Both the position numbers and the translations under genes were made by a program. Shown in pieces: positions 1 to 37,439 of a stretch of DNA of 43,655 bases. Each line of letters starts with the position of its first letter. Position 1 is the stretch's first letter. The notes beneath the pieces were generated by a model. It saw only the letters and a list, made by a program, of their open reading frames with translations, did no database searches and was not told the DNA's origin. The stretch covers positions 1 to 43,655 of IMG/VR virus record IMGVR_UViG_3300025466_000074; one strand, 5' to 3'. The stretch is from a virus.

Positions 1-70
1 ACCGAGAGGGGGCCGAAGGACTCGTCCCAACTGCCTACTGATTAAAATCTAGTAGTGCCGACTGACAAAT

Positions 71-135
71 TGTGCATAAGTCTGTGCATAAGCTGTGTAT
101 AACTTGTGCATAACTTGTGCATAACTTGTGTATAA
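71..135 (-). repeat. Tandem array of six DnaA boxes (TTATNCACA)
   Basis: Six perfect 9-mers TGTGCATAA or TGTGTATAA start at 71, 83, 94, 105, 116 and 127. Read on the minus strand they are TTATGCACA or TTATACACA, all fitting the DnaA-box consensus TTATNCACA. Spacing is 12, 11, 11, 11 and 11 bp, about one helical turn, so all boxes face the same side of the DNA. The rest of 1-262 shows no convincing gene. There is no long AT-rich unwinding region inside the visible flank; the left flank is cut off by the window edge. Known: host initiator DnaA binds this 9-mer. Inferred: a DnaA-dependent origin, a DnaA-titrating site or an operator. The array could instead be iterons of a phage initiator that happen to fit the consensus. 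Confidence 0.8.
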
Positions 136-262: not shown

Positions 263-424
263 CTACTCCATGCTATCTGGATCCCACTGATTGGTACCTT
301 CGGGCACTAATTGCCGCAATACGTCCACACGTCCTAGGGATTCCACTAGGCTATCGTCCTCGTATTCTGAGGTATCATTCAGTAAGTCATCCATTAAAAT
401 ATCAATATCATTCATAGGATACAT
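263..424 (-). CDS. Small acidic protein, unknown
   Basis: A 53-residue acidic protein beginning MYPMNDIDIL and rich in Asp/Glu/Ser. No family is recognised. The ATG at 422-424 follows an AAAGG about ten bases upstream. A longer TTG-started form, to 451, is possible. It lies just downstream of the GP88-like gene on the same strand, so it may be co-transcribed with it. A promoter-like element overlaps the proposed start; if that promoter is real, translation may begin at the inner ATG at 413-415. Base composition is less AT-rich than in the main gene block. It could be a small early host-takeover protein, but nothing in the sequence proves this. Confidence 0.45.
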   Translation of the reverse strand: MYPMNDIDILMDDLLNDTSEYEDDSLVESLGRVDVLRQLVPEGTNQWDPDSME

Positions 425-451
425 TCTAACAGGACCTTTCGATCCTGTCAA
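423..451 (-). promoter_or_regulatory. Candidate sigma70 promoter
   Basis: Read leftward: TTGACA (446-451), 17 bp, TAGAAT (423-428). A hairpin, AAGTGC (450-455) pairing with GCACTT (461-466), overlaps the -35. The -10 overlaps the ATG at 424, which is awkward for the small gene called there, so this may instead make a near-leaderless transcript from the ATG at 415, or be fortuitous. Confidence 0.4.
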
Positions 452-478: not shown

Positions 479-1198
479 TTATATTGCTTTAATATCAATA
501 ATTCGCTTGACAAATCCTGTGGTATCGTTTTTAGCTTTACCCTTTGCATATAGACCGACAATGCTATTCGGTGCATCCAAAAATCGTAGGTCGGATTCAT
601 CGCCATTAATCACTGGGACATTAAGATATTCACTCGGTAAAGTCTTACTCTCAAACACTACAGCAATATTATACCCATTTTTAATTGCTTTCAATACGTC
701 CGCATCGTTACTATCGGCCGCACTAAATGTCAAGTGATAATTATAGGGCACTTTTCTGTTAGCAATTTTCGTATAATCATAGAATTGAATATCTGGAAAC
801 GCTTCCATAATATTCCGATAGGATCCTACTCTTATCTTTTCCCATGCGATATCCGAAGTACCGTTCAATCGTATGACAGGAATTAATCCGAGTTTTTTAC
901 TTTGCTTAATCGCTAGATTGATATCCGAAACTAGGTCCGACATGAAACCGTCACGATCCTCAAAGAATTCTACCGTTTTGCGGACTCTCGCTTTTTGTAT
1001 CACGTTAGTATTTTCGCCACGCTTAAACATACCACCGCGCCCAGCCGTATTAAGGCAAGCGGTTTTGCATCCGATAGTAGCTTTCGGGCATGTTTGATAC
1101 CCACTCAAGTCGGCTGGCGCTAAGTGTAGAATATAGGAATTGTACCCATACTTCATACCCTTAAGCACCTTAGGATTGCCTGTAGATAATAGCTTCAT
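479..1198 (-). CDS. Gene product 88 (GP88)-like phage protein
   Basis: A 239-residue protein resembling the phage GP88 family, known from mycobacteriophages and many environmental phages; its function is not established. The N-terminal block is diagnostic: GNPKVLKG near residue 7, then LHLAPADLSG near 24, then the cysteine cluster CPKATIGCKTAC (Cys37, Cys44, Cys48) followed by AGRGG. The three close cysteines could bind a metal, or a cluster if a fourth ligand exists. The ATG at 1198 lies a few bases below three tandem leftward promoters, so it is probably an early gene. GC content is visibly higher than in the main block, suggesting separate acquisition. Confidence 0.7.
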   Translation of the reverse strand: MKLLSTGNPKVLKGMKYGYNSYILHLAPADLSGYQTCPKATIGCKTACLNTAGRGGMFKRGENTNVIQKARVRKTVEFFEDRDGFMSDLVSDINLAIKQSKKLGLIPVIRLNGTSDIAWEKIRVGSYRNIMEAFPDIQFYDYTKIANRKVPYNYHLTFSAADSNDADVLKAIKNGYNIAVVFESKTLPSEYLNVPVINGDESDLRFLDAPNSIVGLYAKGKAKNDTTGFVKRIIDIKAI

Positions 1199-5188: not shown

Positions 5189-7359
5189 GAAATCATTCCT
5201 ATGAATTTACTTAAAATTACTCGATTAATAACTTTACCTGTATGATACTTACTTAGTGCATTTACCAGACCTCGTGTTGTTTTAGACTTAACAACCATTT
5301 CATCATCTTCATCAATCTTAGCATCATTTTTCATAATATAGAATTGGTCATAACCAGATGATTCACATACAATACTTTTATTCTTCTTAAACTCTTTACG
5401 AAGTTCATCATAATTTGATGATTTAGGAAATAATGAATGTACTTTCCAATTGAATGTATATTGTGATGTCAGAAAGAATCCTACAACATTACAATCAGTT
5501 ACTAGTTTTAATAGTTTCAATAATGATGCGGTCATTTCAATAGCACCCCATTTAACACGAACTTGATGCTTAGTTGAATTGTGACGAAAAACTACTCTAC
5601 CATCAGTTTCTGAAAAAAGACGTTCACCATCTTTTCGTACATTTAAAACATGTCCATCACCATCAGTCAAGAATACAGTATTCACAATCTGAAGTTTATT
5701 ATCTTGTTTGAATTTAGGAATCATTTGCATAGCACAAATAATTGTTTCATTCAATGGAGTATAACCTAATGAACCCCAACGTGGCCAATAATTCATTCTT
5801 CCAGTTTCTTTATTGCGATAATCATAATTCAATAAAGCATTTGCCATGTAACTAAAGTCTTGACTATTCATTTTACTAGATAACAATTGCATCAAATTGA
5901 ATTTATTTCCCATCATCAAATTATCACCTTTTAAATTGCAATTTGGTGGTAGAAAATCATTATTAGAATCATGATGATAATTTGTTGTAAATGCATAGAC
6001 TTCAAATGGAATACTCAATTTCTTACAGAACAATACTAGATTCAATAATTGTTTGATTGTTTCGTTAATGTATTGTGACATTGAACCTGACCAATCAACA
6101 TACATCACTAGTCCATGAGATTTACCATCAGGTACACTAGAAATACGTTTAAAGATATCTTCTGAGAATTGATATGCATAAATCTTGTTCATATTCAATT
6201 CACCAGTTTTAGATTCTGATACACGTTTCAATTGTTCAGCATTTTTGCGAAGTTCAAATTCTTTTACAAGATATGATACAACTTTATTAGATTTTTTCTT
6301 AAATTGACTATACAAAGTAGGATCAATATGTTCCATTTCAGTTTTTAATCGTGAAACGATAGTTTTATATGAAATAATCACATTATTGAAGTTAATATCT
6401 TCTGGAATAGTAGCATACATTGTATTTCCTACTAAAGGATCAATTAAACTACTCTCATTTCTACGAAATGCATCATCTGTATGTGATTTAATCTCAGTAC
6501 TTGATGATTCGTTATCAAAATTTTCATCAGGACCTTCACTATATGAGTCATCTTGACCAAAATTTCCATCTTTTTCATCAAATTCATCTGAAAAGTCATC
6601 AGAAAATTCATCTTCATCTGATTGTCCATCAAAATCATCTTCATTGATGTCACCTTGACTACCAGATTCGTCAGATTCTTCGTCATCTTCATCAAAATCT
6701 GAGTATTCATCAGTAGGAGATGACTGACCATCTTCATCTTCTTCGTCAATTTCACCTTTTTCACCAGGTTTTTTGTTAGATTTATTCTCTTCTTGTTGTT
6801 TTTGTTGTTCTTCTTGCATGAATTTTGTAATTTTCTTACAAATTTCAATAACATCTTCAAAAGTTTCAGAATTTTCAATTTCTTTGACTAGTTCACGTTC
6901 AGTTTCATTGAATCTAATGCCCAAAGTCCCACCAACCTTGAAATAAAGATTGATTCTGTCTAAGAAATTTATTGTATTTAAGTTTACACCCTTAACTTCG
7001 AAGAAATCTTGTTCCATCAAGTTGGCATATGCACGTAGAAACGGAACTTTTAGTCCTGGAAATCTACGTTTGATTAGTTTTTCGATACGAGCATCTTCAA
7101 CGACATTCAATACTGGCTTAGGAATGCCAGTTATTGAGATGGAGTCTTGATATTGCTGTGGTGGAGTGAATAATGCATGTCCAACTTCATGACCTATGAA
7201 TAAGTCATAGATAGATGGATGCAAATCGTCTGCTAGAATAGGAATTATTAGAGTTCTATCTTTAAGATTGAACGATGCAGTTGTTACATTTCGTTGTTCA
7301 ACTGTAAGATTTTCAGTTGCTAGTAGTTTTGCGAGTTGTGATTTTGAATCAATAAGCAT
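5185..7359 (-). CDS. CobT-like protein: HExxH peptidase-like domain plus VWA domain
   Basis: A 724-residue protein. Residues 57-61 are HEVGH, followed by VVEDARIE (Glu88), a gluzincin-like zinc site as in the N-terminal part of CobT-like proteins. Residues about 190-310 are a long acidic Asp/Glu/Ser linker. A von Willebrand A domain follows, with the MIDAS DWSGS (Asp422, Ser424, Ser426) and a later LTDGDGH. CobT-type proteins normally work with a MoxR/CobS AAA+ ATPase in chelatase- or chaperone-like remodelling; no such ATPase is visible here but one could lie outside the window. The acidic linker creates spurious reading frames in other phases. A good sigma70 promoter stands 30 bases upstream. 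Confidence 0.75.
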   Translation of the reverse strand: MLIDSKSQLAKLLATENLTVEQRNVTTASFNLKDRTLIIPILADDLHPSIYDLFIGHEVGHALFTPPQQYQDSISITGIPKPVLNVVEDARIEKLIKRRFPGLKVPFLRAYANLMEQDFFEVKGVNLNTINFLDRINLYFKVGGTLGIRFNETERELVKEIENSETFEDVIEICKKITKFMQEEQQKQQEENKSNKKPGEKGEIDEEDEDGQSSPTDEYSDFDEDDEESDESGSQGDINEDDFDGQSDEDEFSDDFSDEFDEKDGNFGQDDSYSEGPDENFDNESSSTEIKSHTDDAFRRNESSLIDPLVGNTMYATIPEDINFNNVIISYKTIVSRLKTEMEHIDPTLYSQFKKKSNKVVSYLVKEFELRKNAEQLKRVSESKTGELNMNKIYAYQFSEDIFKRISSVPDGKSHGLVMYVDWSGSMSQYINETIKQLLNLVLFCKKLSIPFEVYAFTTNYHHDSNNDFLPPNCNLKGDNLMMGNKFNLMQLLSSKMNSQDFSYMANALLNYDYRNKETGRMNYWPRWGSLGYTPLNETIICAMQMIPKFKQDNKLQIVNTVFLTDGDGHVLNVRKDGERLFSETDGRVVFRHNSTKHQVRVKWGAIEMTASLLKLLKLVTDCNVVGFFLTSQYTFNWKVHSLFPKSSNYDELRKEFKKNKSIVCESSGYDQFYIMKNDAKIDEDDEMVVKSKTTRGLVNALSKYHTGKVINRVILSKFIGMIS

Positions 7360-27790: not shown

Positions 27791-27798
27791 TATTTAGT
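27791..27798 (-). promoter_or_regulatory. Candidate T4-type late promoter
   Basis: ACTAAATA read leftward, about 40 bases upstream of the ATG at 27752 and overlapping the stop codon of the previous gene. It fits the loose NTAAATA late signal of T4-like marine phages and would drive the packaged-protein genes. Confidence 0.4.
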
Positions 27799-28612
27799 AT
27801 TGAATTAATTTATCTATGATATCTGCTATTGAATAATTGGGTTCAAATCCTAATTGTTTAAGTTTTGTGACATCTAATACCATATTCGTTGCTTGCACAA
27901 CTTTATGGAAATCAGCAGTTTCTATTGACAACATTTTTGATTTTGAGTTAGATTTCTCGATTGCGTATTTGATTAAAGAAACAATTGTCCAAGAAAATCC
28001 ATTACCTATGTTATAGATTTCATTAGTGTTTCCTTTTTCCATCACCAATTTAATTGCATCAACAGCATCATCAACATAGATATAGTCTCTAAATGCTTGT
28101 CCACCATCATATAATGACACATCTTCATTATTCTTAACGAGATTAATCATGTATTGAAGTGCGTTTTTCTTCTTAGATACTTTTGTATCAGTCTCTCCTA
28201 ATACATTAGCAAGTCTAAGAATGCGATATTTAATTCCAAATGTTTCGCAATATGAGATTAGTAATTGTTCTGCGGCTCGTTTTGTGATGCTATAGAATCC
28301 CTTTGGATCACAGTATGAATCCTCTTTGGCTGGAAGAGGAACATTACCATACACAAACCAAGAACTAACAAAATTGAACGTGACATCTTTTCCCTTACAA
28401 CTTTCAAGAGTTTTAATTAATGTGGTTAAATTTGTATCAATGTCCAAGTATGGATTTGTATGCACATTATAGTTGTCGATAGTTGATATGAAATAAAGCA
28501 CATTATTAGACTTTACTTCATAATCATTTCTATCATTAACTATAACATTGGGTGTCATTTCACAGAAACGACCACCCACAAATCCAGCACCTAATACATT
28601 TACTTGTTCCAT
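27794..28612 (-). CDS. NAD-dependent epimerase/reductase (extended SDR)
   Basis: A 272-residue extended SDR that uses NAD(P)H on a nucleotide sugar. The Rossmann glycine motif is GAGFVGGRF, the serine SSWFVYG, and the catalytic pair YSITK (Tyr-x-x-x-Lys). Later DYIYVDDAVDAIKL and NIGNG are typical. It follows an E1-like 3-dehydrase and an RmlB-like dehydratase, so it may reduce the 4-keto group as in CDP-abequose or CDP-paratose synthesis; an epimerase role is equally possible. The ATG at 28612 is preferred to a TTG at 28621. Confidence 0.72.
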   Translation of the reverse strand: MEQVNVLGAGFVGGRFCEMTPNVIVNDRNDYEVKSNNVLYFISTIDNYNVHTNPYLDIDTNLTTLIKTLESCKGKDVTFNFVSSWFVYGNVPLPAKEDSYCDPKGFYSITKRAAEQLLISYCETFGIKYRILRLANVLGETDTKVSKKKNALQYMINLVKNNEDVSLYDGGQAFRDYIYVDDAVDAIKLVMEKGNTNEIYNIGNGFSWTIVSLIKYAIEKSNSKSKMLSIETADFHKVVQATNMVLDVTKLKQLGFEPNYSIADIIDKLIQY

Positions 28613-29907
28613 GCAATACAAACTTTCTCAATGTAATTCAAAATGTTTTCATTATATAGTGGTGAACATCCTAAGAAGAACACATTACTTAATGCTAGAT
28701 TAGAATTTGGATATTGTTGATAGTCATCAAGATGTCTATATCCAGGATGCATCAGAATATTACCAGCAAAGTAATTACGAGTTTGAATCTTATTATCTTC
28801 AAAATATTTAACTAATTTTTCTTTATCTGCTTGGGTTTCACAATAGATTGGCACACCAAACCATGATGGATCAGCATTAGGAGTAGCATTAATTACTCGT
28901 GCTTCTGGAATATTATCTTCAATGAACTTCTGAATTCTATTCTTATATGTTCTACGTGATTCTTCTAAGAAATCAAACTTCTTCAATTGCTCAATACCAA
29001 TAGCACCTTGCAAATCAAGAGGTTTTAAGTTATAACCCATATTTGAGAATACATATTTGTGGTCAATGATTCCATCATATGAATTTAACCAGTTATCAAA
29101 TCGTTTTCCACATTGTCCACATTGCAATAGATTATTTGATCCAACACAGTAACATGCTCTACCCCACCACGCAATACTCCGTGAGGTATCGATAAATTCT
29201 TCATAATTAGAGCATACCATCCCACCTTCACCAGTACTGATGTGGTGAGCAGGATAGAATGATGTTGTCCATGCATAGTAGTAATCAGTAATCAGATTAC
29301 CATTCCATAATGTACCTAATGAATCACAATTATCACCCAATAAGATAATCTCATGTTTATCGCAAATATCAATAATTTTATCCATATCTGGTGGATTACC
29401 CAACACTGGTGATACAAAGATTGCTCGTGTTTTTGGTGTAATCTTTTCTTCAATCTTATTCACATCAAAGTTTAATGTATTCATTTCAATATCAATGAAT
29501 ACTGGAGTTAATCCATTCTGTGAAATTGGTGCAATTGTTGTTGGAAAGCCAACTGGAGATACAATGATTTCATCACCATCTTGCCAATTGAATTGCTTCT
29601 TCATTGCAGTAATCAACACAAGGTTTGCAGAACTACCTGAATTGACCATCAATGAATGTTTGACATTGAATCGTTTGCTGAATTTCTTTTCAAATTGAGC
29701 AACACGTTCACCAGAAACTACCCATTTACCATTTAGAATAGAGTCGATTGCGGCATAGATTTCATTATGGTCCCAAAGTTGTCCAGAATACTGAACAAAG
29801 TCACCTTCTTTATAGTCATCATAATTTTTGATGTATTTTGGATTAGCAGAGTTTGCTAATAGACTAATCATTTCTTGAGTCAAATTATTAGATGCATTAT
29901 TTTCCAT
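28600..29907 (-). CDS. rfbH: E1-like CDP-4-keto-6-deoxyglucose 3-dehydrase (RfbH type)
   Basis: A 435-residue DegT/DnrJ/EryC1-fold protein. The active-site motif is SFYPAHHISTGEGG (216-229): His replaces the usual PLP-binding Lys, as in the E1/RfbH branch that removes the C3 oxygen. E1 also needs a [2Fe-2S] cluster, C-X57-C-X1-C-X7-C: here Cys194 is followed after exactly 57 residues by Cys252 and then Cys254, with Cys263 or Cys266 (before GKRF) as the last ligand. This marks 3,6-dideoxyhexose synthesis, typical of some O-antigens. The reductase partner E3 is not in the window. Confidence 0.82.
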   Translation of the reverse strand: MENNASNNLTQEMISLLANSANPKYIKNYDDYKEGDFVQYSGQLWDHNEIYAAIDSILNGKWVVSGERVAQFEKKFSKRFNVKHSLMVNSGSSANLVLITAMKKQFNWQDGDEIIVSPVGFPTTIAPISQNGLTPVFIDIEMNTLNFDVNKIEEKITPKTRAIFVSPVLGNPPDMDKIIDICDKHEIILLGDNCDSLGTLWNGNLITDYYYAWTTSFYPAHHISTGEGGMVCSNYEEFIDTSRSIAWWGRACYCVGSNNLLQCGQCGKRFDNWLNSYDGIIDHKYVFSNMGYNLKPLDLQGAIGIEQLKKFDFLEESRRTYKNRIQKFIEDNIPEARVINATPNADPSWFGVPIYCETQADKEKLVKYFEDNKIQTRNYFAGNILMHPGYRHLDDYQQYPNSNLALSNVFFLGCSPLYNENILNYIEKVCIAWNK

Positions 29908-30856
29908 TATTTTTTCCTGACGTATACCATTTAATAGTTTCTTTTAGGCCTTCTTCTAAAGTGTATTTTGGTTCATAGCCTAATTCTTTTTTTATCTTTG
30001 AGCAATCGATAGAATATCTTCTATCATGTCCTGGTCTATCTTTTACATATTCTATCATAGTTCCAGAGATATTCATAGCTTTTAGTATCATCTTTACCAA
30101 ATCAATATTGGCAACTTCTTCACCGCCACCAATATTATATTTCTCTCCAACAACACCTTTACGAATCACCAACTCTAATGCTCTACAATGATCCTCAACG
30201 TACAACCAATCACGAACATTTAATCCATCACCATAAACAGGAACGTTCTTTCCTGCTAATATACTCTTAATGATTGTTGGAATAAACTTTTCTGAATGTT
30301 GATTTGGACCATAATTGTTTGAACAATTGGTGATGATTGTAGGAAGTCCATATGTTTTTCCATATGCTTCTACAAAGTGGTCTGATGATGCTTTTGATGC
30401 TGAATATGGACTATTAGTTTGATACTGAGAATATTCAGTAAAACTATGTTGGTCATCTAATTCAAGACTACCATAGACTTCATCTGTTGATACATGAATG
30501 AATTTATCAAGAGAATCTAAATTCATCGCATGATTTAATAGATTAACTGTGCCTAAAACATTTGTCATGATGAATGGACTAGAATCTTTGATTGAATTAT
30601 CAACATGAGTTTCTGCCGCAAAGTTCACAATAACATTTGGTTTATAATGTTTGAATACTTTTTGAATAGTTTCAAAATTTGTGATATCTACTGGTTCAAA
30701 TGCAATACCAAATTCTTCAATTAGTGGTGCAATATAATTATAATTTGATGCATATGTTAAACTATCAACACAAACAACATCATCATTAAATTTTCTTTTT
30801 AGATGATATAGAAAATTACTTCCAATAAACCCAGCACCACCAGTAACTAAAATCAT
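29897..30856 (-). CDS. rmlB: dTDP-glucose 4,6-dehydratase-like (RmlB type)
   Basis: A 319-residue extended SDR that makes a 4-keto-6-deoxyhexose nucleotide from the glucose nucleotide. The motifs are GGAGFIGSN, AAETHVDNSI, STDEVYG, the catalytic YSASK, then NNYGPNQ, GDGLNVRDWLYVEDH and DRPGHDRRY. They fit RmlB closely. With the E1-like gene next to it, CDP-glucose may be the natural substrate, but sequence likeness favours dTDP-glucose; I cannot decide. It overlaps the dehydrase gene by eleven bases, supporting co-expression. Confidence 0.85.
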   Translation of the reverse strand: MILVTGGAGFIGSNFLYHLKRKFNDDVVCVDSLTYASNYNYIAPLIEEFGIAFEPVDITNFETIQKVFKHYKPNVIVNFAAETHVDNSIKDSSPFIMTNVLGTVNLLNHAMNLDSLDKFIHVSTDEVYGSLELDDQHSFTEYSQYQTNSPYSASKASSDHFVEAYGKTYGLPTIITNCSNNYGPNQHSEKFIPTIIKSILAGKNVPVYGDGLNVRDWLYVEDHCRALELVIRKGVVGEKYNIGGGEEVANIDLVKMILKAMNISGTMIEYVKDRPGHDRRYSIDCSKIKKELGYEPKYTLEEGLKETIKWYTSGKNNGK

Positions 30857-31563
30857 AAATCAACTCCATAATGTTTTGCCACTCCATGTTTTCCATGGAA
30901 ACCTAAACTCTTACCTAACCAAGGTGAACCCATATTATGTTCAATACTAAATCTGTCAGCAATTTCATTTGTTGCAAATTTAATATCATAAACTTCTTGA
31001 AGTTCATCTCTATATATCTTGCAAATAATATTGTCTTCTGGAACTACTTTATCACCTTTTCCATCAATCACATAATATCTAGAATCACCTAAATCATAAT
31101 TAATTGATTCATATCCAATGTCCATAGATAACATTGCATCATATAGTTTACGACTTCTTAAACAGAAACCACCATTACCAACTCCACCATTTGGCCATCT
31201 TGCGCCAATATAATCATAATTGAGAAATTCATCAGTCCATGCATCAGCATTAATTGCAAATCCATCAGCATGAATGATTAAATTAAAATCTTCTACTGCA
31301 ATATGTGGAACCAATTTTAATGTGATGAAATTGTATTCATCAGTATATCTTTTAAATCTTTTGATTTTTGTCCATTGTACATCAATATTTAAAAATTGTA
31401 ATCTTTGTGCCGCATTTTCTGGCATAGGAATATCAGAGAACCAATAAACTTTTGACACACGAATGCCAGCATGATGTAATGTCTCTTCAGTTTTTAATAA
31501 TGCTTGAATTGTTGGTTCATATGTGTATGCATCAATACATGTTATACTAAGTGTTTTATTCAA
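30853..31563 (-). CDS. DUF5672-type sugar-cluster protein, likely glycosyltransferase
   Basis: A 236-residue protein with parts LIIHADGFAINADAW, YDYIGARWP and GNGGFCLRSRKL, which match the DUF5672 family, a group found in polysaccharide clusters and considered GT-A-like. The TTG at 31563 is chosen as the start because GATAGG lies upstream and no ATG with a good site is nearer; an ATG at 31614 would overlap the previous gene by 59 bases. Acceptor and donor are unknown. It lies between the RmlB-like gene and other glycosyltransferases. Confidence 0.65.
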   Translation of the reverse strand: MNKTLSITCIDAYTYEPTIQALLKTEETLHHAGIRVSKVYWFSDIPMPENAAQRLQFLNIDVQWTKIKRFKRYTDEYNFITLKLVPHIAVEDFNLIIHADGFAINADAWTDEFLNYDYIGARWPNGGVGNGGFCLRSRKLYDAMLSMDIGYESINYDLGDSRYYVIDGKGDKVVPEDNIICKIYRDELQEVYDIKFATNEIADRFSIEHNMGSPWLGKSLGFHGKHGVAKHYGVDL

Positions 31564-32197
31564 AATCGTACCTATCAACAGATGTACCTGCACTATGAGA
31601 ATATTGCAATACATCTTGTCCCATGAAATTATGATAATTTTCTAATAGACACACATCATCGTGTAATCCTAAATCGCCAATAGAATCGAACCAAACATAT
31701 TCTAAGTCTTTGTCACAACGAGAAACTTCATTCAATGACAATGTCCTATTAAAGAAATCAATTTCAGTAAAGTACATTTGTGTGCCATATGTGACATTAT
31801 TACCCCATTTCGCAGTTACTGCTTTCTTACCTGTTTGTTTACATTTAGTAATCACATCATGATAATCTAAGTCTGGTTTATTATCATAAGTCACTTTCAT
31901 AAAGTATTTGAAATCACCTAAAAACTTTAATGCATTGTGAACAGAAGTCAATTCTGCAACGCCATGATTTGTTGTTCTATTTGGTAACCCATTGATTTGA
32001 AAGCTATTATTACTATCATAAACATAAGCATGAACATATTTTTGAGTTTCTTCATCAATTGTTGAGTGTGATGCAAGCACAACATGATGTCCTGCTTCGA
32101 ATAATCTCTTACAGATTACTCGTGTCATTTTTCTTTTTTCTGCTTCAAAGTTACCGCCACAATAAGATGTGACAATTATTGCTGTATCATTCTGCAT
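31556..32197 (-). CDS. Unknown sugar-cluster protein, probable glycosyltransferase
   Basis: A 213-residue protein beginning MQNDTAIIVTSYCGGN, typical of an N-terminal nucleotide-binding strand of a GT-A fold. ATG at 32197 is preferred since AAGGGA lies just before it and it overlaps the previous gene by only eleven bases. The middle part, FMKVTYDNKPDLD, carries an aspartate-rich stretch where a DxD motif is often found. No firm family is assigned. Context alone suggests a role in envelope-sugar assembly. Confidence 0.5.
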   Translation of the reverse strand: MQNDTAIIVTSYCGGNFEAEKRKMTRVICKRLFEAGHHVVLASHSTIDEETQKYVHAYVYDSNNSFQINGLPNRTTNHGVAELTSVHNALKFLGDFKYFMKVTYDNKPDLDYHDVITKCKQTGKKAVTAKWGNNVTYGTQMYFTEIDFFNRTLSLNEVSRCDKDLEYVWFDSIGDLGLHDDVCLLENYHNFMGQDVLQYSHSAGTSVDRYDFE

Positions 32198-32864
32198 AAG
32201 TTTCCCTTGGTAAGTACCAACGATTGTCTTGTCCTGGATGCATATCGTACCATTTTGGATCTCCACTTCCAATCCAACATTCATAATCAAATCGATGATG
32301 TGGTTGTCCTGCAAATTGTGGTACATAATTATTTGATTCTGGAGTATCTAATCTTCTACACTTGCGTAGATATGATGATTTCGCCCAAAAGAAAGTTCCA
32401 GCATAAAATGGATATGGTGGATTATTAAGATATGCACATCCTACAGTATCATATCCTTCATCTAGTTTTGCAACACAATCTTTCCAACGTTCGATATTCC
32501 AGTATTGCATATATCTACGCCAATTTTGATGTGGTCCATCTGAATGTGAGATACCTTTACTTGTGATGTTTAACACATAGTAATCCCAATTTTGATTATG
32601 TGCATCTTCTTGTATACGATGAATAGTTGTTGCTTCATACCATTCTTTATAAGATTCATCAAAATGTTCATAATATACATTGGTTCTATCTTTCCATCGT
32701 TCTTTCAACCAATTATAACTATCAATATTATAATGACACATAACATTTACTTCATCAACATTATCAATTAATTGAGTTGATTCTAATAATTTAACTTGCT
32801 CGAATAGAATATCAAATCCTCTAGGAGTGATATCCATTGCGTGTATATAAACTTTAATCTTCAT
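32187..32864 (-). CDS. Glycosyltransferase-like protein (GT-A type)
   Basis: A 225-residue protein resembling phage and bacterial glycosyltransferases with the pattern WDYYVLNITSKGISH, then WRRYMQYWNIERW, GYDTVGCAY, and FYAGTFFWAKSSYL, ending with ECWIGSG. This is typical of a family that moves a sugar to a cell-surface polymer. The donor is not known. It overlaps neighbours on both sides, a sign of coupled translation in the sugar cluster. Confidence 0.65.
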   Translation of the reverse strand: MKIKVYIHAMDITPRGFDILFEQVKLLESTQLIDNVDEVNVMCHYNIDSYNWLKERWKDRTNVYYEHFDESYKEWYEATTIHRIQEDAHNQNWDYYVLNITSKGISHSDGPHQNWRRYMQYWNIERWKDCVAKLDEGYDTVGCAYLNNPPYPFYAGTFFWAKSSYLRKCRRLDTPESNNYVPQFAGQPHHRFDYECWIGSGDPKWYDMHPGQDNRWYLPRETYAE

Positions 32865-33576
32865 TTAGTGGATCCAAATTCCATTCATGATTGAACATAA
32901 TAATTTTACCTTGTCCTTGCATTGCATAGAAAGGTGTTGTGTGTAGTAGTCCAACTGAACCATAAAAGTAATAACGTTTCTTATCATCATCAATTGCAGA
33001 TGCATAATGAGATGTTCCAGTATCACCACCAATGTAATGACTACACTTAGCAATGTAATGTAGATTTTGAATTAAATCTGTTGAGATTGCAAACTTAGTT
33101 GGTTTGATGTTGAAGTTTAGTCCTGGTGCAACACATAGAATCTTACCATAATCATCATACTTTTCTTGCTCATAATGATTAATGATGTCTTGTAACATCT
33201 CATTTGACCAATTTCGATATGTATTGTATGGTGCATCCATGACTGGTGCAATACAAATCAACTTTTCTTTAAATACATTAATATTTAATTTGATGATATC
33301 ACCAGTCTGTGACCTAATTTCCCATAAGTTTGCACCAGACATCATTGGATCTAGTATTGCTGTACCAGGTTCTTCTGATAGAAATCCACGCTTAACTAGA
33401 AAGTCTCTAAAGTCTTTACAATGTTGTCCTTGTCCTAAAGACCTATCTGGCACATAAAATTGAACATCACCATATAAAGGTGGATGCTTTCTCAGGTGCC
33501 ACAAATAGTTTAATAGTGCAATCATGTCACCATTACGCAATGTACTAAAATTATATGGCTCAATATTAATAATCAT
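32854..33576 (-). CDS. GT9/heptosyltransferase-like protein
   Basis: A 240-residue protein with a C-terminal IAKCSHYIGGDTGTSHYASAI. This recalls the GT-B nucleotide-sugar-binding part of ADP-heptose:LPS heptosyltransferases (D-T-G-x-x-H-x-A). It is shorter than full-length enzymes (about 320-350), so it may be a trimmed version or one half of a pair with the adjacent gene at 33566-34306, which has a heptosyltransferase-like N-terminal half. Donor and acceptor are unknown. Confidence 0.5.
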   Translation of the reverse strand: MIINIEPYNFSTLRNGDMIALLNYLWHLRKHPPLYGDVQFYVPDRSLGQGQHCKDFRDFLVKRGFLSEEPGTAILDPMMSGANLWEIRSQTGDIIKLNINVFKEKLICIAPVMDAPYNTYRNWSNEMLQDIINHYEQEKYDDYGKILCVAPGLNFNIKPTKFAISTDLIQNLHYIAKCSHYIGGDTGTSHYASAIDDDKKRYYFYGSVGLLHTTPFYAMQGQGKIIMFNHEWNLDPLNED

Positions 33577-34306
33577 ATTTAAAATCTCGAATGTATTTTA
33601 ACTTTGCTCCTCTATCTTTATAATAGTGCAAGTCAAAATCATGTTCAACTGGAAGTCCTTGCCATGTTCGCATATCTTCATCCCACAAGACATACAAATC
33701 TTTCTTCATTAAGTCAGCAAGAATACCAATTCCTGTGAATGTTGTAACGAATGGATTAGGATTATATTTAATCAAAGCACAATTATACAGTAAATCATTA
33801 TTGTAGTCAAGATAGACTGCTTTATTTCTATCAATAATGCCAGAACTCTCAATGAGATTGGAATATCTACGAGTATCTACATCTGGCGCATCTTTAGGTG
33901 ACCATCTATCACCAACAATCATCTTTTCTTCATGATAATCAATATCTAATTTAGGAATTTGCAATTTAAAGTCATCATCGTTATAAAGTGTAAACCCATA
34001 TGTTTTATTGAAATAGTTGAGATATTGTCTATTTGCAATAGGTGCTTGTGCATTACCTTCAGTTGTTCCAGTATCATCGAGGATAGCACCATTCATGTAG
34101 TTAAACTTTTGTTCTCTCCAAAAGAAAACTTCTTCAATCATATCTTGTGCTAATAGTAACTCTTTGATTCCTTTGAATCTTTCAAGTCTATCACAAATTG
34201 AAAATGATAGTTTTTGACCAGTTGCTTTATATAAAGCCGATAGTGTAGGAAGACAATGTGCAAAGTCTCCTAAATTATGTATTCTAGGTGAGGCTACGCT
34301 AATCAT
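33566..34306 (-). CDS. GT-B-like sugar-cluster protein, possibly a glycosyltransferase
   Basis: A 246-residue protein. Its start, SPRIHNLGDFAHCLPTLSAL, looks like the first Rossmann strand and helix of GT9-type transferases (LGD..H..P.L.AL). The remainder is not characteristic. It may form a functional pair with the neighbouring gene, whose C-terminal part carries the nucleotide-sugar-binding pattern missing here. It overlaps that gene by eleven bases. Confidence 0.45.
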   Translation of the reverse strand: MISVASPRIHNLGDFAHCLPTLSALYKATGQKLSFSICDRLERFKGIKELLLAQDMIEEVFFWREQKFNYMNGAILDDTGTTEGNAQAPIANRQYLNYFNKTYGFTLYNDDDFKLQIPKLDIDYHEEKMIVGDRWSPKDAPDVDTRRYSNLIESSGIIDRNKAVYLDYNNDLLYNCALIKYNPNPFVTTFTGIGILADLMKKDLYVLWDEDMRTWQGLPVEHDFDLHYYKDRGAKLKYIRDFKYDY

Positions 34307-35127
34307 GCTAACTCATTAAATTTTTTAAAGATTATAAACCAGTCTGAAGGATCAACATAATGCAATTCGCTATCCTGTGGACTACTTAAGAATGACATCA
34401 ACAATAATGTTTGGTCATCATCAATCAATCTATGACTGAGTAATACTGCTAGGCAATTCGTCATACGACTCATTAAATCTACCCATTTGTGTGTACCTGC
34501 AACAATATGACATCCCATAATATAAACATCACCAGTGTAGATTATTTCATCAATTGGACGCTCTGGTTCAATTGTTCTGATATTGAAATAATGAATCTTT
34601 TCTTTATCAAAATCATATGACCATTCTTTGCTTGATGGGATAGTATTAGGATTTCTGCAATAACCAAAATCAATCCATGCAGTTAAATCTGTCTTGATAT
34701 GACCATTTGTAATTGCATGTGATACATAATATGATTTAAAAATATTCACTAGAACATAATCTGTGTGCCAATATTCAATCAATTGTGGATTATCAACTTT
34801 GCCATAATAGTTTGGATCATTCATGATTTCTGTAACTTTATCACGAATTTCATCAAATCCATTTGGAAGATAACTAGGTAAAACAACGACTGTAGTTTGT
34901 TCTTCTAGTCCAGCATCTTTTCTGATATTGTAGATTCTTTCAGCAAAATCTTGTGATGTGTATATCACCATATCATTTTTTAGTTGGGCAAGATTTTTAA
35001 AATATTCAAAGTATGTGTCCACACTTCTATGTTGATAATGTGGTAATACTCTACCATGTTTCTCATTAGGTAGATTTCCTCTACCAATATCAAAGAATGC
35101 AGTTACTACTGTTATATTTTTATCCAT
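34303..35127 (-). CDS. HtrL/YibB-family protein
   Basis: A 274-residue protein of the HtrL/YibB (WlaTC-like) family, linked to LPS or polysaccharide synthesis but not biochemically defined. The parts that fit are ITVVTAFFDIGRGN at the start, WIDFGYCRN near the middle, and DDDQTLLL near the end, the last two likely binding a metal and nucleotide sugar. The ATG at 35127 (MDKNITVV) is chosen, with GAGAGAA upstream. It overlaps both neighbours. Confidence 0.7.
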   Translation of the reverse strand: MDKNITVVTAFFDIGRGNLPNEKHGRVLPHYQHRSVDTYFEYFKNLAQLKNDMVIYTSQDFAERIYNIRKDAGLEEQTTVVVLPSYLPNGFDEIRDKVTEIMNDPNYYGKVDNPQLIEYWHTDYVLVNIFKSYYVSHAITNGHIKTDLTAWIDFGYCRNPNTIPSSKEWSYDFDKEKIHYFNIRTIEPERPIDEIIYTGDVYIMGCHIVAGTHKWVDLMSRMTNCLAVLLSHRLIDDDQTLLLMSFLSSPQDSELHYVDPSDWFIIFKKFNELA

Positions 35128-35971
35128 ATTTTCTCTCAATCAAATTTTTCCATGCTGGAACTCTATTATATTGATGAACCATAACATACTTATCACCACT
35201 TGGTGTATACACAAACTCACCATCAAATGTAGGTTCACCACATTTCAAATGTGGTCTAAACTTATCAATCTTAGTTGGATCAACTGTTGTGCCACATTCA
35301 CATGCCCAGTTTATATCATGTGAAATGAAATGTGTCATATAAAAATATGGCTTTAGTCCCAACAACACATTGACTGCGGCTTGGTCTGGCGTTGGATTAT
35401 TGATTCCTCGACATAATAATGCAACATTCAATGAGAACTCTTTGAATGATTCAAAATCACCAGCCATTGATCCTGCATTATAAATTTGATTGTCTTTCAT
35501 TGTTTCATAAACATCTGGACCAAAACAATCAATTAAATTTTGTCTTCCCCAATCTTCATTTTTGTACTCTAATCCTTCTGATGCATAAAACAAACTTCCA
35601 TCTAATCCATATACATCTAACCAATCAGATGGATTGCTTTGAAATACTACGTCAGCACAATCAGTCGAAATTACATATCGAATACCACTTTGTTGTTTTA
35701 GATATTGCCAATAAAAATAATGTCTGAGCATTGGAACTTGATATGTTAATCCCAATTCAAATTGATAACCAGTATCATTATAGTTTCTATTTGTTGATGT
35801 TAAAACAACTTCAATTCCATTGTCTTGAAGTTGTTTGATTGTATCATCTTTAATATTGAATGCGATGACAACTTTTCTACCAGTAAATCCACTTCGATTT
35901 AGTGAGTTTACCCAATATTTAAGTTTATCATATCCATATTCTGATACGGCTGTGATGACTAAATCTTGCAT
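35120..35971 (-). CDS. Putative glycosyltransferase
   Basis: A 283-residue protein with GT-A-like features: a first strand LVITAVSEYGYDKL, then YVISTDCADVVFQSNPSDW, in which STDCADVVFQ is similar to the DxD region of several transferases, and later QIYNAGSMAGDFESF. The C-terminal YVMVHQYNRVPAW is typical of these proteins. It would transfer a sugar to a surface polymer; details are unknown. It overlaps the following and preceding genes. Confidence 0.6.
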   Translation of the reverse strand: MQDLVITAVSEYGYDKLKYWVNSLNRSGFTGRKVVIAFNIKDDTIKQLQDNGIEVVLTSTNRNYNDTGYQFELGLTYQVPMLRHYFYWQYLKQQSGIRYVISTDCADVVFQSNPSDWLDVYGLDGSLFYASEGLEYKNEDWGRQNLIDCFGPDVYETMKDNQIYNAGSMAGDFESFKEFSLNVALLCRGINNPTPDQAAVNVLLGLKPYFYMTHFISHDINWACECGTTVDPTKIDKFRPHLKCGEPTFDGEFVYTPSGDKYVMVHQYNRVPAWKNLIERKYG

Positions 35972-36744
35972 AGTTGCTTTCCTAAATCTTCAAATATCTG
36001 TTTATAATTAAATGGTCCAATTTTAACATTCAATTCATCACACAATTTTGTATTATCTAAAACAAATTGTCTATCTAGTTGCCAACCAGTTTTATTGATT
36101 TCTCCACCATAAGTATATCCTTTGACGAGTGATTCTGCAATAACACTAATTGGTAGTGCAATTCCTGAACTGAGATTGAATACTCCAAATGGCTTTACTT
36201 GACATATCTTTTCAATTAATGTCACAGCATTCTGTATTGGTAAAAAGTCTCGTCTTACTGCATCTGAAATGGTGAAGTCAATTATTCCTCTATTGACTAG
36301 ATTTGTCATACAATATCCAACAAAAGAATCTCTACCATATTCAAATCCAAATATATTTGAACCTCTTAAGATAGTAATATTATTACCATAATTTGCAAGT
36401 AGTTTGAATTCTGTATTTAATTTATTTTCTGAGTGGAAGTCATATGGACGAACTTCTGAATTTTCAGAATAACTCATAAAATGTTTACTATTACCATACA
36501 CTTTACTAGTAGAAAGCATCACATAATGACATCCAGCATCACAGGCCTTACGACCAACATACCAATCGACATCTATCTTCTCTCTGTATTTTTGAATCTT
36601 ATAAAGAGGATTTAATGCACAATTCACAACAACATCATACTTTGTGAAATCTACATCATTAAGTTTTTTATATGAAACTCTATCATATTTTTTTAGATTA
36701 CTTCCGATGAAACTATTTTCACCTACGACTAGGACTTTCTCCAT
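35959..36744 (-). CDS. NAD-dependent SDR with altered catalytic tyrosine
   Basis: A 261-residue extended SDR similar to nucleotide-sugar reductases and epimerases. It has the nucleotide-binding VVGENSFIGSNL and STSKVYGNS. In the usual YxxxK position the sequence is FHSENKLNTE: the Lys is present but His stands where Tyr is expected. It may therefore be a degenerate or mechanistically altered enzyme. Later FGVFNLSSG is typical of the family. It overlaps a glycosyltransferase gene upstream by 16 bases and belongs to the sugar cluster. Confidence 0.65.
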   Translation of the reverse strand: MEKVLVVGENSFIGSNLKKYDRVSYKKLNDVDFTKYDVVVNCALNPLYKIQKYREKIDVDWYVGRKACDAGCHYVMLSTSKVYGNSKHFMSYSENSEVRPYDFHSENKLNTEFKLLANYGNNITILRGSNIFGFEYGRDSFVGYCMTNLVNRGIIDFTISDAVRRDFLPIQNAVTLIEKICQVKPFGVFNLSSGIALPISVIAESLVKGYTYGGEINKTGWQLDRQFVLDNTKLCDELNVKIGPFNYKQIFEDLGKQLCKI

Positions 36745-37439
36745 GGTAATTTACCTTTATAATAATCATTTAATTTCATATTACCTTCAATAAAGAATTC
36801 TTTAGTGACTGATCCTTCATTTCCTGCAAGACGATAGTTGACTGTATATTTTCCAGTACAGTCAAATTTATTAAAATGTTGTGCAATAGTAGCAAAGAAT
36901 ACTCTATCTTGACCCCAACCACCATGCCAAACACTTGCAATCTTTGTCATTACATCACGTTTAACACAATAACAATTCGTATCTATGTGATAAGTATGTG
37001 TCCATGCTTGCCACTTGCCTAACGATTCGCAATCATCAGTACAGATGAATTTTCCATCTTTATCACAAATACTTCTTAATGAATAGCACCAATCTAAATT
37101 ATTTTCTTCGATTGTTTCAACACATCGTTGAACATGGAATCTTTCTAAGAATACATCTTGGTCTAGAAACAGAACATAGTCTTCTTTGACAAGATGTGAG
37201 AATGCGGCATAGACTCTATGACCATAGAATCCATTTGCACCGACATTCTCGGGTAGATAGCAAACTTTTAGATTTGGATTGCCCATATAATCGCTTACAA
37301 TTGTTTGGACTTTCCCAGAAAATTCTTCACCGTCACATACAACATAACAAGTTGTTGGATATGTTTGATTGAGAACACTTTCAATTGCGGTTCTGCACTC
37401 TGGAGAACCTGTCACTGGAATAATAACAACGGCAGACAT
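36729..37439 (-). CDS. Family 2-like glycosyltransferase
   Basis: A 236-residue GT-A-fold transferase. VVIIPVTGSPECRTAIESVL at the start is the classical GT2 opening, YLPENVGANG follows, and FLDQDVF carries the DxD metal site. GWGQDRVFF is a late acidic site. It would attach a sugar, perhaps the dideoxyhexose made by this cluster, to an acceptor in the host envelope or on the virion. It is the first gene of the sugar cluster in reading direction. Confidence 0.78.
   Translation of the reverse strand: MSAVVIIPVTGSPECRTAIESVLNQTYPTTCYVVCDGEEFSGKVQTIVSDYMGNPNLKVCYLPENVGANGFYGHRVYAAFSHLVKEDYVLFLDQDVFLERFHVQRCVETIEENNLDWCYSLRSICDKDGKFICTDDCESLGKWQAWTHTYHIDTNCYCVKRDVMTKIASVWHGGWGQDRVFFATIAQHFNKFDCTGKYTVNYRLAGNEGSVTKEFFIEGNMKLNDYYKGKLPWRKS

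Follow-up and report, generated by a model that had tools for sequence, protein, structure and literature searches.

Phage identity and gene content

The window, meaning the whole stretch of DNA that we analyzed, is a linear 43,655-bp IMG/VR fragment whose first base lies 70 bp from a tandem array of DnaA boxes. It encodes gp43 DNA polymerase, UvsX, a gp41-like helicase, primase, T4-type RNase H, ribonucleotide reductase, and ThyX, and because these genes are present we identify it, on gene content, as a divergent T4-like phage. The polymerase belonged to the PHROG DNA polymerase family and had cyanophage gp43 proteins as its top database matches (~57% identity). A first-pass annotation of this DNA had called the phage T4-like, an assignment borne out by gp43, UvsX, gp41, primase, and T4-type RNase H. 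Elsewhere in the window, a large block at 27794–37439 contained genes that, from their translations alone, were sugar-nucleotide epimerase/dehydratase-like, aminotransferase-like, and glycosyltransferase-like.

Along the minus strand, a GP88-family gene is followed by a host-type promoter (451–423), a 50-aa ORF, and the noncoding region with the array (Table 1). The GP88 gene and the 50-aa ORF are the array's only neighbors, and no Rep domain adjoins it. The inverted repeat beside the array, CTACT-N11-AGTAG, matched solely the known relative described below (L125/L209) in an IMG/VR search. Two other identities for the noncoding region were considered and rejected. An RNA element had no Rfam match at curated thresholds and the region's folding did not surpass that of shuffled sequences, and for a plasmid-derived origin a search against plasmids gave no match.

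Table 1 Features at the array-bearing end of the window.
Feature	Position	Strand	Evidence or remark
Noncoding region with array, cut by contig end	1–262	-	48% GC vs 33% window mean
Inverted repeat CTACT-N11-AGTAG adjoining array	35–55		Identical in L125
Whole array, six DnaA-box consensus 9-mers TTATRCACA	71–135	-	Motif scan; kept in L125 6094–6157
Box 6, last in reading direction, TTATGCACA	71–79	-	Motif scan
Box 5, TTATGCACA	83–91	-	Motif scan
Box 4, TTATACACA	94–102	-	Motif scan
Box 3, TTATGCACA	105–113	-	Motif scan
Box 2, TTATGCACA	116–124	-	Motif scan
Box 1, TTATACACA	127–135	-	Motif scan
Small ORF, 50 aa, without Pfam match	263–415	-	One residue differs in L125
Sigma-70-like promoter TTGACA, 17 nt, TAGAAT, extended -10, ahead of small ORF	423–451	-	Sequence
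GP88-family gene (PF17338, phrog_1617)	479–1198	-	Profile match

The DnaA-box array

A motif scan of the window found six exact TTATNCACA 9-mers at 71–135, all noncoding and in one orientation. Start-to-start distances were 12, 11, 11, 11, and 11 bp, leaving gaps of 2 or 3 bp, and the boxes were of two kinds, TTATGCACA (four copies) and TTATACACA (two copies), with the array consensus TTATRCACA. Tandem Repeats Finder also recovered the 11-bp array. Across the 43.6-kb window there were just two further TTATNCACA matches (23315 and 29456), so the background of the motif is not raised, and from base composition the expected number of six boxes in a row at 11/12 bp spacing was about 1e-20 to 3e-20. 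The six same-direction boxes, their spacing, and the claim that such an array is very unlikely by chance all came from the first-pass annotation and held up, with the strand now assigned as minus.

Conservation in the closest relative

A second contig, IMGVR_UViG_3300022602_000661 (L125/L209), contains the array in continuous flanks that are 92–94% identical to the window and extends past the array beyond the window's end, which ruled out an assembly chimera. Its array (L125 6094–6157) lies at the matching location and has six boxes with every spacing at 11 bp. When the two were aligned, none of the 48 fixed box positions had changed and four of the six N positions had (p about 5e-5), so that all substitutions inside boxes fell at the degenerate N. 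Spacer bases differed too, and since a spacer indel separates the two sequences, the array is unlikely to be coding. By our reading of the alignment, shifting L125 by one box lowers the substitution count; one-box slippage would account for part of the changes, with the core and copy number still kept.

Beyond its array, L125 has in order the inverted repeat, an AT-rich stretch about 75–170 bp from the array, a TTGACA-type promoter at 6323, and small early genes. In this relative the noncoding region extends a further ~170 bp outside the window, crossing the AT-rich stretch before the next early gene begins, and all transcription in this early stretch runs in one direction. An early-mode promoter and small early genes were present at the array locus in both the window and L125. 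At L125 6323, 6777, 7213, 8528, and 9179, small early genes follow early promoters that are all but identical (TTGACA, 17 nt containing GGCAA, TACAAT-like -10).

Patchy presence in other T4-like phages

T4-like peptidase homologues at ~32–46% amino-acid identity marked 80 loci, of which 20 continued for 7.3 kb or more beyond the peptidase gene. Tandem boxes were present in two of these 20, with three boxes at 11 and 12 bp in L419 and two at 11 bp in L435. Both sets lie on the same strand as the window's boxes, ~7 kb downstream of the peptidase versus ~5 kb in the window, and each precedes a promoter-like sequence, read by eye, and an early ORF. A further contig with a T4-like peptidase homologue (L308) had three boxes 420 bp downstream of the peptidase. 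The whole genomes of T4 and KVP40 contained no two boxes within 20 bp. The first-pass annotation had made its interpretation depend on the array being conserved in close relatives, and this expectation held in part: the closest relative keeps six boxes, but T4 and KVP40 are without a box pair and few of the long T4-like loci have tandem boxes.

Within the KVP40 group, the Vibrio phages ValKK3, phi-Grn1, QD01, VS2, and nt-1 had an early gap with 4–7 boxes, all in one strand and spaced mostly at 20–23 and 12 bp; the ValKK3 cluster lies at 33.15–33.26 kb. KVP40 and VH1_2019 had conserved flanks with the box cluster replaced by unrelated sequence (L378 and L381 vs L205, L379, L380, and L383). In these alignments the DnaA-box element behaves like an exchangeable cassette. 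Four T4-like lineages (L125, ValKK3, L419, and L435) shared a layout of noncoding gap, array, host-type early promoter, and small gene. The records of Vibrio phages R10Z, R11Z, PVA23, and PVA8 start or stop inside the DnaA-box gap, and the window itself ends 70 bp from its array.

Recurrence in phages and bacteria

Three boxes at a period of 11 occurred in at least 120 IMG/VR stretches, versus one for the reversed motif, and five boxes at that period in at least 13; these counts are lower bounds from contigs that are fragments, and the samples are perhaps non-random. With gaps left free, 160 of the 293 viral spacings among the matches listed were 11 or 12 bp, with a second rise at 21–22 and few at 13–17. 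Viral arrays lay outside ORFs in 91 of 127 cases among the matches listed, against 26 expected, and occupied the longest gap of the locus in 33 of 58. The families matched by ORFs adjoining viral arrays include replication initiators, a DnaD-like helicase loader, and helicases, while portal, head, and terminase were the commonest families of distant ORFs at these loci; this comparison is qualitative, covering the 25 leading families, and terminases occur near arrays too. The carriers were many unrelated phages, including microviruses and Vibrio, Lactococcus, and freshwater phages, and judged by motif and spacing DnaA-box arrays are not peculiar to the window's phage. For phages in the literature, we found one Ori-Finder prediction of a DnaA array, in a Pseudomonas phage (PMC11512268), and open-access full texts contained no description of DnaA-box arrays for T4-like phages or KVP40 relatives.

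The four-box form was found in at least 51 stretches among 84,980 prokaryote genomes, and neighbors at the 51 loci listed included 15 DnaA and 9 DnaN. Very long arrays (7–11 boxes, period 11) were seen in MAGs of Holosporales and Binatia, where they lay at the ends of contigs, and in pSOE2, a small plasmid of Candidatus Pantoea edessiphila (L329, L365, L345, L347, and L328). A small Buchnera plasmid had several places resembling long box arrays.

The GP88 neighbor

GP88 genes were found in 7 of ~225 array-bearing loci, the window's sister contig included, and six of these were within ~2 kb of the boxes. Among 48 non-redundant GP88 loci picked regardless of boxes, the 2 kb preceding the gene had 0.29–0.36 boxes/kb and the remainder ~0.06, a 5–6 times higher density upstream, and the reversed-motif control gave one match in the 2-kb upstream span of the same 48 loci. 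GP88 (PF17338) has three invariant cysteines (C-x6-C-x3-C) and occurs near box clusters in diverse phages (L064, L096, L249, L265, L315, L030, and L208). In the cultured Limnohabitans phage DC31, likewise, a 120-bp span ~1.8 kb upstream of the GP88 homologue contains five boxes. A fold model of GP88 (pLDDT 85) had no PDB match at E ≤ 0.001, and the structure gave no function.

Host DnaA as the probable ligand

In vivo, E. coli DnaA requires box pairs 2 or 3 bp apart, and 1 bp inserted into a 3-bp gap strongly reduces its binding (PMC11317965). Thermotoga DnaA does best with a 2-bp gap (PMC10316083), and the low-affinity arrays of E. coli oriC have 2-bp gaps (PMC6727663). The stretch at 71–135 is likewise a same-orientation box cluster with gaps of 2–3 bp, and the DnaA assignment of the first-pass annotation agrees, in both consensus and spacing, with the double-box rule measured in E. 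coli (PMC11317965). Because of this spacing rule and because the sequence is common to unrelated phages, host DnaA is the best candidate and very probably the ligand of the six-box array. The recurrence of one sequence across unrelated phages fits a universal host protein better than a phage protein.

Proposed role and alternatives

We favor, tentatively, an early replication-initiation element as the role of the array, because of its early position, the gene families that neighbor such arrays, and its likeness to oriC; a role of this kind is quite possible. The array would be an early-region platform on which host DnaA binds and oligomerizes in a virulent T4-like phage. On entry, ahead of phage protein synthesis, host DnaA-ATP would fill the six boxes head to tail as at oriC, and the filled array could serve the first round of phage replication by helping to open adjacent DNA or to position a helicase or primer, with the phage gp41/gp43 machinery taking over afterwards. 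It counts against initiation that T4 and KVP40 have no comparable array. T4-like phages possess their own initiation machinery, and DnaA loads host DnaB; we know of no loading of gp41 by DnaA. Viral arrays had no DnaA-trio enrichment and were no more AT-rich than other gaps, and no cumulative GC-skew extremum fell at the arrays of ValKK3, AM4, and DC31, skew being a weak test in T4-like phages. With trio, unwinding, and skew signals missing, DnaA removal and gene control both stay serious rivals. These three readings correspond to the phage origin, DnaA sink, and operator suggested in the first-pass annotation.

The array could instead act like datA, binding DnaA-ATP or promoting its hydrolysis and so halting host initiation and freeing nucleotides and replisomes. 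A count of five to six boxes is comparable to that of E. coli datA, the array sits in an early, host-takeover region, its absence in KVP40 shows that it is dispensable, and the viral arrays examined lack the unwinding or skew signal of an origin. One genome copy, however, offers just six sites at the early stage, and for a pure sink several copies would be expected, yet in ValKK3 and in DC31 almost every clustered box belongs to one cluster. We regard such a sink as rather unlikely. Control of early genes, in which bound DnaA would activate or block the downstream early operon or read-through from promoter 451–423, is unlikely as well. DnaA is a known transcription factor and the succession of gap, array, promoter, and small gene is common to L125, ValKK3, L419, and L435, but the next -35 box lies at different distances from the array (~165 bp in L125 vs ~45 bp in L419), the upstream promoter is ~290 bp from the array, and the strand of the array relative to the gene differs between ValKK3 and L125.

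Evenly spaced direct repeats are also typical of Rep-type origins, and the assignment of DnaA as ligand rests on motif and spacing, so the boxes could belong to a phage-encoded initiator or repressor, as iterons with a coincidental likeness to DnaA boxes. This is improbable given that the identical 9-mer and spacing occur in microviruses and in Vibrio, Lactococcus, and freshwater phages, that the array has no adjoining Rep-like gene, and that viral arrays match cellular arrays beside dnaA. A functionless, inert tandem duplication is very improbable: slippage can enlarge 11-bp tandem arrays and the one-box shift of L125 gives fewer substitutions, but the 48 fixed positions are unchanged, arrays of the reversed motif are about 120 times rarer, and viral arrays strongly prefer noncoding gaps.

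Extending the initiation reading beyond the window, it is possible, though we put this forward with slightly more reserve, that some T4-like and many other phages independently use host DnaA, via an exchangeable early-region array cassette, to fire their first origin, and that phages of the KVP40 group gain or lose this cassette at one constant position. T4-like phages are the standard textbook example of replication that does not rely on the host initiator. Several T4-like lineages have a strict, phased DnaA array, and culturable Vibrio phages provide natural pairs with and without boxes at one locus, so that DnaA use by such phages can be tested directly. Well over 100 phage loci obey the E. 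coli double-box spacing rule, which suggests that recruitment or removal of DnaA is a common, little-discussed phage strategy, and some viruses may borrow or disable the host replication starter.

Comparison with known systems

The array resembles those of bacterial oriC (E. coli low-affinity arrays; Aquifex, Thermotoga, and Thermus) in its 9-mer consensus, single orientation, and 2- to 3-bp gaps, and cellular arrays of four boxes built alike are often found beside dnaA/dnaN. Unlike bacterial oriC, it lies in a lytic phage with no dnaA nearby, all six of its boxes follow the strict consensus, and there is no proven unwinding element. The N position is G or A in the window's boxes, whereas it is mostly C in other viral arrays. 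E. coli datA and DARS are DnaA-box clusters outside oriC that alter DnaA activity, and what they share with the window is the clustering of boxes.

T4 oriE, like the window, has direct repeats at even spacing, along with small early genes and an early-mode promoter, on which oriE relies; the role of its repeats has been described as ill defined (PMC3016281). Unlike the window's boxes, the oriE repeats are 24-nt periodic and lie within the coding sequence of gene 5. We rejected them as DnaA boxes, as the repeats found at the annotated oriE contain none; the window, in which we identified no gene 5, does not share the repeat type and place of oriE. At the annotated oriE, the 24-nt periodic repeats occupy L384 4403–4570 (T4 79402–79569), and these 'iterons' may merely mirror protein repeats of gp5.

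Another close parallel is with the Schizotequatrovirus members ValKK3, phi-Grn1, QD01, and VS2, plus nt-1. Their clusters differ from the window's in having boxes mostly two helical turns or one apart (20–23 and 12 bp) and in being replaced in KVP40 and VH1_2019, but like the window each of these T4-like phages carries a single cluster, of 4–7 boxes, in an early gap before a host-type promoter.
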